This document shows positions 996 to 32,975 of a DNA stretch of 54,463 nt, piece by piece. The notes beneath the pieces are model-generated. The model was not told where the DNA came from and ran no database searches. It worked only from the letters and a program-made list of their open reading frames with translations. Numbering within the stretch: position 1 is the stretch's first letter; each line of letters starts with the position of its first letter. The stretch comes from Planktothricoides sp. SR001 (lineage in GTDB: Bacteria > Cyanobacteriota > Cyanobacteriia > Cyanobacteriales > Laspinemataceae), in the NCBI RefSeq assembly GCF_001276715.1, contig NZ_LIUQ01000047.1:1-54463 (forward strand). Reading direction: 5' to 3'. The position numbers and the translations under genes were made by a program.

Positions 996-3011
996 ATGCC
1001 AAAACTAGAGCAACGCTTTGATTATGTAAAAATTGGGTTGGCCTCACCCGATCGCATTCGGGAATGGGGCGAACGCATTTTACCCAATGGCCAAGTAGTC
1101 GGAGAAGTCACTAAACCAGAGACTATAAATTACCGCACGCTCAAACCTGAAATGGACGGTTTGTTCTGTGAGCGAATCTTTGGCCCAGCAAAAGATTGGG
1201 AATGCCACTGCGGTAAATACAAAAGAGTACGCCACCGGGGAATCGTCTGTGAACGCTGTGGCGTCGAAGTCACCGAATCCCGCGTCCGCCGCCACCGCAT
1301 GGGCTACATCAGACTAGCCGCCCCCGTCACCCATGTTTGGTATCTCAAAGGCATACCTAGCTATATGTCCATCCTACTGGATATGCCCCTACGAGACGTA
1401 GAACAAATCGTCTATTTCAACTCCTACGTCGTCCTCAGTCCGGGGAACGCGGAAAACCTGGCTTATAAGCAACTACTCACAGAAGACGAGTGGATGCGGA
1501 TTGAAGATGAAATGTATGTGGAAGATTCCGACCTAGCCGGAATCGAAGTAGGCATTGGCGCCGAGGCAGTGCAGCGGTTGTTGCAAGACTTGAACTTGGA
1601 GCAAGAAGCCGAATCCTTGCGCGAAGAAATTGCCAACTCCAAAGGCCAAAAACGGGCAAAGCTAATTAAACGCTTGCGGGTAATTGATAACTTTATTGCC
1701 ACAGGTAGCTGCCCCGATTGGATGGTATTGGAATATATCCCGGTGATTCCTCCAGACCTGCGCCCAATGGTGCAGTTAGACGGGGGTCGCTTTGCCACCA
1801 GTGATTTAAATGACTTGTATCGGCGCGTAATTAACCGCAATAATCGCCTCGCCCGGTTGCAGGAGATTTTAGCCCCAGAGATTATCATCCGTAATGAAAA
1901 GCGGATGCTCCAAGAAGCCGTCGATGCCCTGATTGATAACGGTCGCCGGGGCCGCACGGTGGTGGGGGCAAATAATCGTCCCCTGAAGTCCCTGTCAGAC
2001 ATTATTGAAGGGAAACAAGGTCGTTTTCGGCAAAATCTCCTGGGAAAACGGGTGGACTATTCTGGCCGTTCGGTGATTGTGGTCGGCCCAAAACTGGCCA
2101 TTCACCAGTGTGGTTTACCCAGAGAAATGGCGATCGAATTGTTCCAACCCTTTGTAATTCATCGGTTGATTCGCCAAGGACTGGTGAACAATATTAAGGC
2201 GGCGAAAAAACTGATTCAACGGGGCGACCCAACGGTCTGGGATGTGCTCGAAGATGTGATTACCGGCCATCCGGTGCTGTTAAACCGTGCCCCGACGTTG
2301 CACCGTTTGGGGATTCAAGCCTTTGAGCCGATGCTGGTAGACGGACGAGCGATTCAGTTGCACCCCCTGGTCTGTCCGGCATTTAATGCGGACTTTGATG
2401 GCGACCAAATGGCTGTCCATGTCCCCTTGTCCTTGGAAGCTCAAGCCGAAGCCCGTTTGTTGATGCTGGCTAGTAACAATATTATGTCTCCAGCGACAGG
2501 TCAGCCGATTGTGGCGCCTTCTCAGGATATGGTGTTGGGCTGTTATTATTTGACGGCAAATAATCCCCAGGGTCAAGAAAGTGCTGGCAAGTATTTTGCC
2601 AATATGGATGATGTGGAAGTTGCCTACGACCAGAAACAGGTTTCTTTGCATACTTTGGTCTGGGTGCGCGTTGACCCAGAGATGGAGATGGAAACCGATA
2701 AGCCAGAAGAACCACCGGAAGTTACCCAGTATCCAGATGGCACGGTGTTAAAGCTTTATTGGATGCCGTTAGAGATTAATTTGTTGCCTCAGTTGACCGA
2801 AGCACCCCAGCAAATACAGCACTCTGATGGCACCGTGGAGCAATTGACCAGTTTGTCCCGGGTAATTACTGATGCTACAGGTCAGGTGATTGCGTCTTAT
2901 ATTAAGTCTCGCCAAGTTCGAGAAGTTAAAGGACGGCCAGCTTCTCAGTATATTTTGACTACCCCTGGGCGGATTATCTTAAATCAGGCGATCGCCCGCA
3001 TTTTGGCTTAG
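996..3011 (+). CDS. rpoC1: RNA polymerase beta' N-terminal subunit (gamma), RpoC1
   Basis: This is the N-terminal half of beta', a separate subunit (gamma) in cyanobacteria and plastids, part of the transcribing core enzyme. The zinc-finger cysteines are C70, C72, C85 and C88. The catalytic magnesium loop NADFDGD sits at about 464-470. At 671 residues it is some 45 longer than the roughly 625 I recall for other cyanobacteria; the extra lies in an acidic stretch near the C-terminus (about 555-620, with [16 protein letters not shown]). The ATG at 996 follows AGGA at 986-989, and this ribosome binding site belongs to the inserted HNH cassette, not to the original rpoC1 leader at 171. rpoC2 follows 99 nt downstream, so the two are probably cotranscribed. 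Confidence 0.97.
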
Positions 3012-3110: not shown

Positions 3111-6100
3111 ATGCAAAAAATCCGTTTTCTCAACCGAGTTATTAATAAAGGGCAGCTAAAAAAGTTAATGGCCTCAGCCTTTATTAATTATGGGACGGCT
3201 CGTTCAGCCCAGATGGCCGATTGCTTAAAAAATTTAGGATTTCACTACGCTACAAAGGCAGGAGTTTCTATTAGTGTAGATGACCTAAAAGTTCCGCCGT
3301 CTAAACGGAAATTACTCCTAGAAGCAGAACAGGAAATTTCTGAAACCGAAGCCCGTTATAGCCGAGGAGAAATTACCGAAGTCGAACGATTCCAGAAGGT
3401 AATTGATACTTGGAATGGCACCTCTGAAGCTTTGAAAGATGAAGTGGTGAAATATTTCCGCGCTTCTGACCCGCTCAATAGTGTCTATATGATGGCATTT
3501 TCTGGCGCCCGGGGGAATATTTCTCAGGTGCGGCAGTTGGTGGGGATGCGGGGTCTGATGGCTAACCCCCAAGGGGAAATTATCGATTTGCCGATTAAAA
3601 CTAATTTCCGCGAAGGACTGACGGTGACGGAGTATATTATCTCCAGTTACGGGGCGCGGAAAGGTTTGGTGGATACCGCTTTGCGGACGGCAGATTCGGG
3701 GTATTTGACCAGACGTTTGGTGGATGTGTCCCAAGATGTGATTGTCCGGGAGGTGGACTGCGGCACGGAACGCGGCATTGTTCAGCGGGCCATGACTGAT
3801 GGTTCTAAAATCTTGATTCCTTTGAAAGACCGGCTGCTGGGGCGGACGGTGGGCAAAGATGTGCTCCATCCCCAAACCGGAGAGGTTTTGGTAGCCCGAA
3901 ATCAGGTGATTACTCAAGAGTTGGCTGGGGTAATTGATAAGGCAAAGGTGCAAGAAATATTGCTGCGATCGCCCCTAACTTGTGAATCGCCCCGGTCGGT
4001 CTGCCAAACTTGCTACGGCTGGAGTTTAGCCCATGCTCACTTGGTAGACCTGGGAGAAGCGGTGGGGATTATTGCTGCCCAATCCATTGGCGAACCAGGA
4101 ACACAGTTAACTATGCGGACATTCCACACCGGAGGGGTCTTTACCGGAGAAGTAGCCCGCGTGGTGCGATCGCCAATGGCGGGAACGTTGCGCTATGACA
4201 AACAATTGCGGACTAGACCATTCCGCACCCGTCATGGAGATGATGCCTTTGTGGTAGAAAATCTCACTGGGGAAATCGTGGTGGTAGGGGCAGGAAATGC
4301 AGAGGAACAAAGTTTCACCGTAACCCAAGGGACAACAATTTTAGTCAAAGATGGCGGCGCCGTAATCAGTGACCAAATCTTGGCGGAAGTGCCTTTTTCG
4401 GGACGCACCGCCCGGAAAAATACAGAAAAAGCTACTAAGGATGTGGCCTCGGATTTGTCTGGAGAGGTGTTGTTCGCCGATGTGGTGCCAGAAGAAAAAG
4501 TTGACCGCCAAGGAAACTCCACCCGGATTGCCCAGCGCGGTGGTTTGCTGTGGGTTCTCTCCGGGGAAGTTTACAATTTACCCCCAGGGGCAGAGCCAGT
4601 AGTGAAAAATGGCGATCAGGTGGCTTATGGCACTACTTTGGCCGAAACTAAGCTGGTTACGGAAAATGGCGGGGTGGTGCGACTGCCTGCGGAATGTCCA
4701 GAAGGAGAAATCCCCCGCGAGGTGGAAATTATTACCGCTTCGGTGGTGCTCGACCAAGCGAAAGTCAGAGAGGAATCTTCCGCTGGTCGGGAAATGTACA
4801 TGATCGAAACAGTCCACGAGCAGTTATTTTCTCTCAAAGCCGCCCCAGGGACTAAGGTTCTTTCTGGGCAAGTGGTGGCCGAACTGATTGACAATACCTA
4901 TCGCACCCAAACCGGCGGCATGATTAAATATGCCGGGGTGGAAGTGGCCAAGCGGGGTAAAGCCAAACAGGGTTATGAGGTGGTCAAAGGGGGTACGCTG
5001 TTGTGGATTCCCGAAGAATGCCATGAGGTGAATAAGGATATCTCTCTGTTGCAGGTGGAAGAAGGTCAATATGTGGAAGCCGGCACAGAGATTGTTAAGG
5101 ATATCTACTGCCAAAATAATGGGGTAGTGGAAATTGTCCAGAAAAACGATATTCTGCGCGAGGTGATTATTAAGCCCGGTTCAATTCATATGTCCGATGA
5201 CCCAGAGGAGATGATGAACCTGGATGGTCAGTTCGCCCAAGCGGGTGAGGAAGTTCTGCCCGGACTGGTGGCAGAAAACCTGAGTTATTTGGAATATGTG
5301 GAAACTACCGAAGGGGCAGCTATCTTGCTCCGCAAGGTAGAAGAGTTTGCGGTTCCCGACGAGCCGTCGGTGCCGTCCCAAGAGTCGATCGCCGATAGTA
5401 CCGGGCGATCGCAGATTCAGTTGCGTTCGGTGCAGCGGATTCCCTACAAGGATGGCGATCGGGTTAAGTCCGTAGAAGGACTGGAACTGCTGCGAACTCA
5501 GTTGGTGCTGGAAATTGGCAAAGATGTGGCTCAATTGGCCGCCGACATTGAAATTGTCCCCGATGAAGAAGATGAAACTATCAAGCGCCTACAGTTGGTG
5601 ATTTTGGAATCATTGGTGATTCGTCGGGATGTGATGGCCGATGCCACCAGCGGCAGCACCGTCACTCGCTTATTGGTGAAAGATGGCGACCAAATTGAGC
5701 CGGGTGCCTGTGTAGCGCGGACAGAAATTTTAGGTAAGGAAGCTGGGGTGGTGCGCGGTATTCGTCAAGGGGCGGAAGCTGTGCGCCGGATTTTGGTGAT
5801 GCGATCAGATGACCAAAAAACTATTTCCGTGCCGACTAAACCTAAAGTAAAAGTGGGCGACCTGGTGGTGGCCGGAACCGAAATTGCCCCGGGCGTGCCT
5901 GCGGAGATTTCTGGGGAAGTTTTACAGGTTAATCCGTCGGCGACGGATTCGGGCAGCAGTTCGGGGGGCAGTTCGGGGGGCAGCTATCAGCTATTGCTGC
6001 GAGAAGGCCGTCCCTATCGGGTGTCCTCTGGTGCGGTGTTGCACGTGGATGATGGGGCACTGGTACAGCGGGGCGATAACCTGGTGTTGCTGGTGTTTGA

Positions 6101-12657: not shown

Positions 12658-12680
12658 AGCCCACGATAGTGGGCTTTTTT
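12658..12680 (+). terminator. Rho-independent terminator after the 11820 gene
   Basis: AGCCCAC (12658-12664), loop GATA, GTGGGCT (12669-12675), then five more T. The 7-bp perfect stem with T-run ends the upstream operon just before the next promoter. Confidence 0.85.
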
Positions 12681-12691
12681 ATGCCTGAAAA

Positions 12692-12733
12692 ATTTTTGTC
12701 AAATTTGACAAAAATATCTAGATTTTCTTGTAT
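12692..12733 (+). promoter_or_regulatory. Promoter overlapped by a perfect 24-bp palindrome
   Basis: ATTTTTGTCAAA (12692-12703) and its exact reverse complement TTTGACAAAAAT (12704-12715) form an uninterrupted palindrome. TTGACA (12705-12710) inside it is a perfect -35 box, followed after 17 nt by TTGTAT (12728-12733) as a possible -10. A dimeric repressor bound here would block the RNA unit that follows. Which protein binds is unknown. Confidence 0.6.
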
Positions 12734-12840
12734 TTTTTGATAATTTAAGCTATGATGATATGAGAGTACAAGCTAAAGCTAAACCTTTAACTTAAACCGT
12801 ACTGACGTTACAGTGTAGGTTCGACTCCTACCCCTGCACA

Positions 12841-12905
12841 AGAAACCGGGTTTCTGCTTTAATTTATGCCGAAAATCAGAGTTTAAATTAAGAAACCCGG
12901 TTTCT
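12841..12905. repeat. Small palindromic element inserted inside tRNA-like module A
   Basis: AGAAACCGGGTTTCT (12841-12855) and AGAAACCCGGTTTCT (12891-12905) bound a 65-bp inverted repeat with AT-rich inner arms. The same palindrome occurs at 39604-39618 and, with one change, at 9088-9102. It sits exactly between the two acceptor strands of module A, where module B has only four bases, so it looks like a recent insertion. Confidence 0.7.
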
Positions 12906-13157
12906 GGACTCCGGGGTAGCCCAATTGGTAGAGGCGGCGTCCCGTACAAATTCAAAATCAGCTTATTACTCTAAGTTAAATATTCATCGCCGATCGCCTA
13001 AACAATCGTTGGGTTATTCCAGTGTCGAGATGCTGGCTCATCTCCAGCCTGGGGCTCCAACTTGCCCCGGTAGTTTAATTGGTAAAATACGACTTTAATT
13101 TTAAGCTAAACCCTGACTTAAATGTGAGGGCGTGTGCAAATGGGCGATATTTTAAGA

Positions 13158-13193
13158 CCCGTAGCAGGACAGCGCTACGGGCCTTTGTTTTTG
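13158..13193 (+). terminator. Rho-independent terminator closing the tRNA-like unit
   Basis: CCCGTAGC (13158-13165), eight-base loop, GCTACGGG (13174-13181), then CCTTTGTTTTT. It ends the transcript that the palindromic promoter would start. Confidence 0.75.
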
Positions 13194-32447: not shown

Positions 32448-32975
32448 ATGAATTCAGAAAAATTAGAGCGAATCCAAAATGAGTACAAGACAGGTCGCTA
32501 TGCCTTTGAACGCGGTCAGTACCGCCAAGCCATCAAACACCTAGAAACGGCGACTGGTTTGGTGGAAAAAACCACTCGGTTTGGCGGCGAAGTGCAAATA
32601 TGGTTGGTGACGGCTTATGAAGCATCAGGAGAAGGGGCAAAAGCGATCGCCCTTTGTCAAACACTGACTCGTCATCCTTATATTGAAACCCGCAAACAAG
32701 CCCGTCGGTTATTGGCAATTTTAGAAGCACCCCAATTGCGGATGCACCCAGAATGGCGGGTAGAAATTCCCGATTTGAGTAAACTCGATGAAAGTGAGGC
32801 CAAATTTCGCCAAGTCAGCGAAGCCCCAAAGCCCAAACGCCGGGAACCCAAGCGCCCGCCTGCGGAACCCGAACCCGTGGATCTGTCCCAAGTGAATACC
32901 AAAGATAATCAATTTATTTGGGTCGCCCTTGGTGCCAGTGTGCTGATTTTAGGTGGGTTAATCTGGTTTAGTTAA
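32448..32975 (+). CDS. TPR-like protein with a C-terminal membrane anchor
   Basis: The 175-residue protein has helical-repeat sequence in its first half (YKTGRYAFERGQYRQAIKHLETA and IWLVTAYEASGEGAKAIALCQTL), consistent with two tetratricopeptide repeats for protein contacts. A proline- and charge-rich linker (about 120-150; KPKRREPKRPPAEPEPV) leads to a final membrane helix (157-174, FIWVALGASVLILGGLIWF), so it is tail-anchored. Such proteins are conserved in cyanobacteria, but I know no assigned function. It has no close neighbour on the same strand; the Crp-type regulator follows 357 nt later. Confidence 0.8.
   Translation: MNSEKLERIQNEYKTGRYAFERGQYRQAIKHLETATGLVEKTTRFGGEVQIWLVTAYEASGEGAKAIALCQTLTRHPYIETRKQARRLLAILEAPQLRMHPEWRVEIPDLSKLDESEAKFRQVSEAPKPKRREPKRPPAEPEPVDLSQVNTKDNQFIWVALGASVLILGGLIWFS

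Follow-up and report, generated by a model that had tools for sequence, protein, structure and literature searches.

A conserved RNA family with tandem permuted tRNA-like folds, linked by sequence evidence to DUF7873 genes of bacteria and phages

Results

Here we analyze a predicted noncoding RNA carried on a contig of Planktothricoides sp. SR001 (NZ_LIUQ01000047.1 of assembly GCF_001276715.1, positions 1 to 54,463; the window below is this whole stretch of 54,463 nucleotides), where it follows a gene for a 243-residue protein of family DUF7873 (PF25283; 11820–12551; Pfam E-value 2.3e-117, 391.4 bits against a threshold of 27), its putative protein partner. The gene, the promoter and the RNA are on the forward strand. 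The RNA spans 12763–13192, its 5′ end placed from a promoter and a conserved AGAGTAC and its 3′ end at a terminator, and it is 430 nt long here owing to a repeat insertion, against about 360 nt usually. Within it lie two tRNA-like modules, A and B, each arranged in the order T-arm, acceptor 3′ strand, loop, acceptor 5′ strand and D-arm, with the chain leaving through the anticodon stem, and neither has an anticodon. A first-pass annotation had proposed two such permuted modules in a unit with its own promoter and terminator and with T plus CCA at the module B junction; the modules hold at their coordinates, with 6/7 acceptor pairs in A and 7/7 in B, and the other elements are present as described below.

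Module A is enclosed by a helix, P1, formed by GAGTA (12764–12768) and TACTC (12967–12971), which was nearly invariant among the cyanobacteria aligned and by eye reads GAGCG/CGCTC in Streptomyces. Inside it, P2 (GTAC, 12799–12802) and the anticodon-stem 3′ strand (GACGT, 12804–12808), together 12799–12808, pair with the anticodon-stem 5′ strand GCGTC and the second GTAC of P2 at 12937–12947. The T-arm (GTAGG TTCGACT CCTAC, 12815–12831) runs into the acceptor 3′ strand CCCTGCA (12832–12838), which forms 6/7 pairs with TCCGGGG (12910–12916), and 7/7 in the sister genome G001 (Osc_S07). The acceptor loop (12839–12909) is enlarged by an interspersed palindromic repeat, with AGAAACCGGGTTTCT at 12841–12855 and AGAAACCCGGTTTCT at 12891–12905; the acceptor 5′ strand is then followed by UA (12917–12918) and the D-arm GCC CAATTGGTAGA GGC (12919–12935), completing 12910–12935. 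A conserved inter-module linker (12966–12985), which contains the P1 3′ strand and was the source of our search pattern, leads to the 5′ strands of P3 (12986–12991), P4 (12995–12998) and P5 (13008–13014), spanning 12986–13014, with partners at 13143–13148, 13129–13132 and 13110–13117, respectively. Module B has its anticodon-stem 3′ strand at 13023–13027 (partner 13090–13094; 4/5 pairs in the source genome by eye), and the stretch 13032–13059 holds its T-arm (13032–13048), acceptor 3′ strand CTGGGGC (13049–13055), U73 (13056) and CCA (13057–13059). Its acceptor 5′ strand GCCCCGG (13064–13070), pairing 7/7 with 13049–13055, is followed by UA and the D-arm GTTT AATTGGTA AAAT (13073–13088), ending the stretch 13064–13088. 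The 3′ strands of P5, P4 and P3, with the conserved internal loops CTTAAATGTGA and GTGCAAATG, occupy 13110–13148.

Upstream is a sigma-70-like promoter, read by eye (12728–12756; TTGTAT 12728–12733, a 17-base spacer, TATGAT 12751–12756). Similar boxes were seen by eye at the matching place in most of the 26 upstream stretches of cyanobacterial relatives compared, where the hexamers chosen as best by a script were often other boxes and 2/28 loci gave no start. Downstream, a hairpin CCCGTAGC/GCTACGGG (13158–13181) followed by a T-run makes up the terminator (13158–13192), which by eye is kept with different bases in relatives. The region folded better than its shuffles (z −4.9), with a single-sequence fold dominated by the repeat. 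That repeat was considered as a functional core and rejected, since it is missing from relatives. The palindrome AGAAACCGGGTTTCT had 49 matches listed in the source genome including this one (a part of the candidates scored) and was frequent in relatives too, yet it was absent from this locus in the sister genome G001 and in G002, G004 and G013. Among the relatives' sequences compared it was shared only by G048, a genome of the same species. In G268 a similar repeat, by eye, occupies the same loop, apparently through an independent insertion, suggesting that the module A loop is tolerant of insertions.

The acceptor pairing is specific to each module, as the first-pass annotation had also proposed. 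In the window, crossed pairing gives 4/7 and 3/7 pairs (hand count), and across 40 two-module RNAs the modules' own acceptors pair at a mean of 6.98/7 compared with 4.7 when crossed, with 22/80 crossed pairings still at 6 or more. A scan for the permuted module found at least one in 65/69 regions and at least two in 35/69 (L131, with a cut gene, and L133, at a contig end, were excluded), against 17 matches in 1380 dinucleotide-shuffled regions, none on the reverse strand of any of the 69 regions, 2 across 100 kb of cyanobacterial DNA from unrelated loci, and one extra 6/7 match in the window at 32903. In the window itself only module B is recovered, because the module A loop exceeds the length the scan allows. 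The anticodon stem, which was not a scan criterion, had at least 4 pairs in 70/94 modules compared with 27.2 (maximum 41) with shuffled partners. Over 91 distinct modules the T-loop, U8 and the GG of the D-loop follow tRNA, which is partly imposed by the scan. When these were split by D-stem length, a division that may misassign some, A modules (n=43) had a 3-bp D-stem and a loop of 9–12 bases often ending in GGTAGA, with A73 in 28, and B modules (n=48) had a 4-bp D-stem and a loop of 7–9 bases, with U73 in 31. We take the D-arm of the A modules to resemble that of tRNA-Leu. A separate observation concerns the module B T-loop (at the position of 13032–13048 in the window), which in many cyanobacteria reads CTCATAT, CTCGTAT or similar, with T54 and A58 lost together; none of the scanned plasmid, phage and viral loci showed this joint loss, and neither did L167–L174.

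Covariation among cyanobacterial relatives carries the structural argument. A DNA search recovered the locus in G001, G002, G004 and G013, and a degenerate pattern of the linker gave 27 named loci, every one from a record with a cyanobacterial title (Microcoleus, Okeania, Oscillatoria, Microseira, Tychonema, Argonema, Hydrocoleum, Cyanosarcina and bins). For module B, 26 sequences chosen by linker and not by structure were aligned after 2 duplicates were dropped; over the 37 stated pairs 96.0% of cells were paired (81.3% shuffled), 158 cells were double-changed (49.8 shuffled), and the covariation score was 0.507 compared with 0.221 for shuffled and 0.097–0.154 for slid controls, the last comparison favouring the stated structures because, in both modules, these derive from a member of the alignment. 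Double changes occurred in 26/37 pairs, including 7/7 pairs of the acceptor, where 100% of cells were paired, and pairs in the anticodon, T and D stems; among the outer helices they occurred in 3/6 pairs of P3, 3/4 of P4 and 3/3 in the first half of P5, whose second half is weak (70.5% paired). RNAalifold, unprompted, returned the same tRNA-like core from this alignment. Module A was aligned from 18 sequences, leaving aside the window and 9/27 pattern loci (for a long insert, no start, no tRNA-like A, or duplication), and had 97.7% of cells paired, a score of 0.423 compared with 0.217 shuffled and at most 0.134 slid, and double changes in 6/7 acceptor pairs. Its count of pair types was not above shuffles (242/500), and P1 and the D-stem were uninformative because they hardly vary.

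The acceptor, T and D stems thus covary in homologous loci, and the aligned relatives keep the same permuted order, so that neither an absence of covariation nor non-permuted halves in relatives, which the first-pass annotation had named as grounds for discarding its proposal, was found. These results bear directly on the idea that a rearranged tRNA array has decayed to leave this locus. The tRNA-like T and D halves and the presence of phage copies among tRNA genes could suggest such an origin, but strong covariation and non-tRNA helices conserved across phyla refute it, and we give it next to no probability.

The RNA lies directly 3′ of a DUF7873 gene in most loci examined. By tblastn, DUF7873 was found in 4/72,556 plasmid records (Streptomyces 3, Nonomuraea 1) and 73/50,697 phage records, from phages of Vibrio (29), Gordonia (12), Rhizobium (12), Klebsiella (7), Serratia (6), Arthrobacter (3), Pseudanabaena (2), Rhodococcus (1) and Microcoleus (1), and a related-locus search added 24 viral contigs. 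Nineteen of the 77 plasmid and phage records were analysed, Serratia not being among them, and one or two modules followed DUF7873 in 18 of these, with the RNA standing just 3′ of the gene on plasmids of Streptomyces and Nonomuraea and in Arthrobacter, Gordonia, Rhodococcus, Rhizobium, Klebsiella and Vibrio phages, an arrangement also seen in viral contigs. The exception among the 19 was the Microcoleus phage My-WqHQDG (L109), where a HEARO RNA (129 bits) at 3950–4159 lies 3′ of DUF7873, with an isolated tRNA T-half before it. Scanning the window, the 19 records and 22/24 viral loci located modules 3′ of DUF7873 in 38/42 loci, several of them near-copies of each other; the misses were L109, L114, L115 and L125, the last recovered by a covariance model, R1, built solely from the 26 cyanobacterial sequences. 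R1 matched 37/47 further sources at E≤1, 36 of them at E≤0.001, and its lowest E-value was 9e-19, in Streptomyces. The match was full-length in Streptomyces, in Nonomuraea, in phages of Gordonia, Arthrobacter and Rhodococcus, and in many of the viral contigs; partial matches elsewhere (positions about 47–111) may be other tRNA-like pairs. Ten sources were unmatched (L109, L114, L115, L131, L135, L138, L141, L143, L159 and L169), of which L135, L138, L141 and L143 had modules seen by the scan. Homology of the core is therefore well supported across phyla, and the most distant phages rest on the scan.

Among 291 genomes of the order, 56 had a DNA match to the locus, 25 of them read as the RNA and 31 lying in the low-complexity end of the query, and all 25 with the RNA carry DUF7873, broken or cut in 3. 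DUF7873 is present in 43/291 genomes, R1 at E<1e-20 marks 26/291, and 24 of those 26 carry the gene, the other two being G249 and G276. In G122 the RNA is at a contig end. The RNA was found in 35 of the 43 DUF7873 genomes, a tally that includes weaker R1 matches beside the gene in 10 genomes and G241 by scan.

Several findings weigh against the explanation favoured below, in which DUF7873 is the partner of a two-module RNA. The RNA was not found in the other 8 of the 43 genomes, 7 of them judged by R1 alone under stricter filters and one, G209 (L169), also scanned. In L114 and L115 DUF7873 is followed directly by another stretch, and neither the scan nor R1 found the RNA. Conversely, G249 has a 25-residue remnant of DUF7873 beside the RNA, G276 lacks the gene and has also lost the 5′ half of the RNA, G245 has both modules with DUF7873 not found in the genome, and G054 carries the gene on one contig and the RNA on another. 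At least 5/28 cyanobacterial loci have a module A that is not tRNA-like, indicating that two modules are not essential everywhere. Nor is RNA binding evident from the protein, since Foldseek of an AlphaFold2 model against the PDB gave nothing at E≤0.001 (best E 0.014, TM 0.13) and the pI is 6.0. That model, built from 26 sequences (mean pLDDT 90.1, pTM 0.73), begins and ends in helices and contains a long pair of strands (151–166/175–194). A sequence search against solved structures gave 3 matches at E≤1 (best 0.039), no family in the NCBIfam, PHROGs or PADLOC profiles was matched, and a literature search found the name DUF7873 in no paper of the library searched and this RNA in no listed title or abstract opening.

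The close position 3′ of DUF7873 in most loci could also mean that the structure is a regulatory 3′ region of that gene, sensing tRNA-binding factors and controlling it. However, the gene and the RNA's own promoter are separated in the window by a hairpin and T-run (about 12658–12681, by eye), and the separate contigs in G054 also argue against regulation, which we regard as very unlikely.

Established RNA classes do not account for the locus. ARAGORN, and Rfam at gathering level, gave no tRNA or other match there, and the matches of a permissive Rfam scan, at E 0.68 to 8.7, did not rise above chance level; one of them was a 5.5-bit piece of a tmRNA T-arm. No Rfam family reached its cut-off on the RNA in 19 RNA-bearing records, YrlA being nearest, below threshold. 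An ordinary or pseudo tRNA was rejected since both tRNA searches are silent, a 7-base anticodon loop is absent and the order is permuted; a tmRNA was rejected at the level of model matches, on that 5.5-bit match and the presence of an ordinary tmRNA elsewhere in the genome (C112, 131 bits), and a Ro60-dependent Y RNA on the absence of TROVE from the source genome and the missed YrlA cut-off. The YrlA model (RF02553) had no match in the source genome at E≤0.001, and on the module-bearing loci L136, L138, L139, L140, L171 and L173 it gave 25–38 bits compared with a cut-off of 69. These included a Klebsiella phage (37.6 bits), a Rhizobium phage (36.2), Nonomuraea and two cyanobacteria, with one match per module in Streptomyces nigrescens (28.3 and 26.5 bits), and the best coincide with the modules. 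The model also gives below-cut-off matches in 7/14 control genomes, so that these matches are weakly specific and indicate likeness, not membership. Two loci had modules with partial sub-threshold tmRNA matches, L136 at 24.8 bits and L173 at 17.3 bits. TROVE/Ro60 was absent from 15/21 RNA-bearing genomes examined, a non-random sample, and present in G002, G100, G103, G122, G181 and G245.

Phage annotations at or near these loci offered two further observations. In Klebsiella phage Centimanus (L142) an annotated "tRNA-Stop(tta)" at 2513–2596 overlaps the module B T-arm half of the RNA (2570–2648), seemingly a misreading of the RNA by a tRNA finder, and in Gordonia phage Phendrix (L103) a tmRNA match (89 bits, 1072–1600) is missing from the annotation. 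A different, single-module permuted tRNA-like RNA was noticed in cyanobacterial tRNA arrays (L188, about 2430–2594, reverse strand; L190, 2613–2771, forward; L191, 1946–2101, reverse), flanked by eye by a conserved CCCCGCGC...AAGCTT/AAGCTT...GCGCGGGG stem that some ordinary tRNAs of these arrays seemingly share in similar form. Two of its copies in L188 coincide with sub-threshold YrlA matches, and TROVE was not found in the genomes of these arrays (G118, G164 and G084).

Encoded CCA together with U at −1 marks a substrate of RNase P, suggesting that RNase P may also cut the RNA. In 28/69 thinned modules (10/32 A, 18/37 B) CCA stands at 74–76, compared with about 2% elsewhere in the junctions, and among B modules 25/37 carry U at −1 (background 0.28) and 29/37 carry G at +1. 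An encoded terminal CCA is absent from the window's two ordinary tRNA genes and from 23/26 phage tRNAs examined (Mimi, Phendrix). The RNA could thus be a precursor cut by RNase P and 3′ processing enzymes at both closed acceptors, like two-piece tmRNA, yielding a tRNA mimic in several pieces whose free CCA ends could be aminoacylated and which could enter the ribosome or be bound by EF-Tu, and the inserts tolerated by the acceptor loops (in the window, G268 and L125) would fit such processing. However, 41/69 thinned modules are without CCA, U at −1 is not significant in A modules (13/32), some loops are so short (4–6 nt) that they resemble plain closing loops, acceptor pairs vary widely with no shared synthetase identity recognised, and the modules have no anticodon. 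We consider processing possible, if rather unlikely. Its furthest extension, a two-headed, multi-piece, CCA-ended tRNA mimic cut by RNase P and carried by DUF7873 in the manner of SmpB, which would amount to a second tmRNA-like translation device of bacteria and phages, seems improbable.

Discussion

The comparisons made here identify, at the level of sequence, an RNA family with a permuted tandem tRNA fold and a linkage to DUF7873, and a conserved family tied to that protein across phyla and phages goes beyond what the first-pass annotation claimed. Its proposal of an RNA that resembles Y RNAs or otherwise mimics tRNA, closed at the acceptors and lacking a neighbouring Ro60 gene, is supported, and of the Rfam models it suggested for comparison, YrlA gave likeness in other loci without membership and tRNA gave nothing. 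A permuted tRNA gene in the algal or archaeal sense, a kind of gene it had also mentioned, is unsupported because the chain exits through the anticodon stem and the RNA lacks an anticodon loop. Algal and archaeal permuted tRNA genes do have the 3′ half first and the acceptors joined by a short loop, but the present RNA has no anticodon loop to restore, is bacterial and phage-borne, and is tandem. Two-piece (permuted) tmRNA likewise has its 3′ half before its 5′ half, a CCA at the junction, a possible RNase P site and no use of an anticodon arm; in contrast the RNA described here has a full D-arm and two modules.

The RNA is best regarded as a variant form among tRNA mimics of the YrlA type, outside the YrlA family itself. 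The permuted topology of YrlA is the same as that of the modules, with a tRNA-like domain of T, D and closed acceptor arms that opens toward the stem of the RNA's ends. The differences are that the present RNA usually has two tandem modules with conserved linkers, has roughly three times the length of the 114-position YrlA model, and adjoins DUF7873 in place of Rsr/Ro60. YrlA is described, in a passage of PMC8394870, as an RNA of 90–150 nt with one tRNA-like domain that is modified by tRNA enzymes and tethers Rsr to PNPase. The explanation we favour, at roughly even chances, is that the RNA is a tandem YrlA-type tRNA mimic acting like a bacterial Y RNA, with DUF7873 rather than Ro60 as its probable partner. 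We infer that the RNA is expressed, that DUF7873 binds it and that it serves as tether or mimic. A free-standing structured RNA would present two permuted, anticodon-less tRNA folds in tandem, each closed by its acceptor-end loop and mounted on conserved helices and internal loops that exit through the anticodon stem; DUF7873 would bind the conserved helical parts, and the tRNA-shaped modules would dock a factor that binds tRNA, possibly a nuclease, an enzyme that modifies tRNA or some surface of the translation machinery, or might instead keep such a factor away from real tRNAs.

A related possibility is a decoy that absorbs nucleases, toxins or modifying enzymes aimed at tRNA and so protects phage or host translation. 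The frequent position of phage copies among tRNA genes is consistent with this, and Hughes et al. 2020 (PMC7790460) suggest that the tRNA-like domain of YrlA may competitively inhibit an anticodon nuclease. Against it, the usual target, the anticodon loop, is absent, and a simple decoy needs neither conserved outer helices nor a linked protein; we hold it unlikely.

The main doubt concerning novelty is of another kind. Burroughs and Aravind reportedly mentioned, in 2016, a novel tRNA-like RNA in SPFH/Band-7 RNA-repair systems, which may be related to the present RNA and likewise stands beside an uncharacterised protein. In Rhodococcus phage NiceHouse (L134, 2874–3729) a Band-7-like gene follows DUF7873, the RNA and tRNA-Lys, and an insensitive tblastn of one Band-7 fragment against the collected loci found a Band-7 homologue near the RNA only there.

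If the reading as a tandem tRNA mimic is right, mimicry of tRNA by bacterial RNAs would be much wider than the Ro60/Y-RNA system, with two folds per RNA and a different protein family. The spread over cyanobacteria, actinobacteria and very different phages looks like a widespread and largely unstudied RNA-protein partnership, and DUF7873 gains a concrete hypothesis, that of an RNA partner. Phage and cyanobacterial models would then be available in which the purpose of tRNA mimicry becomes testable by deletion.
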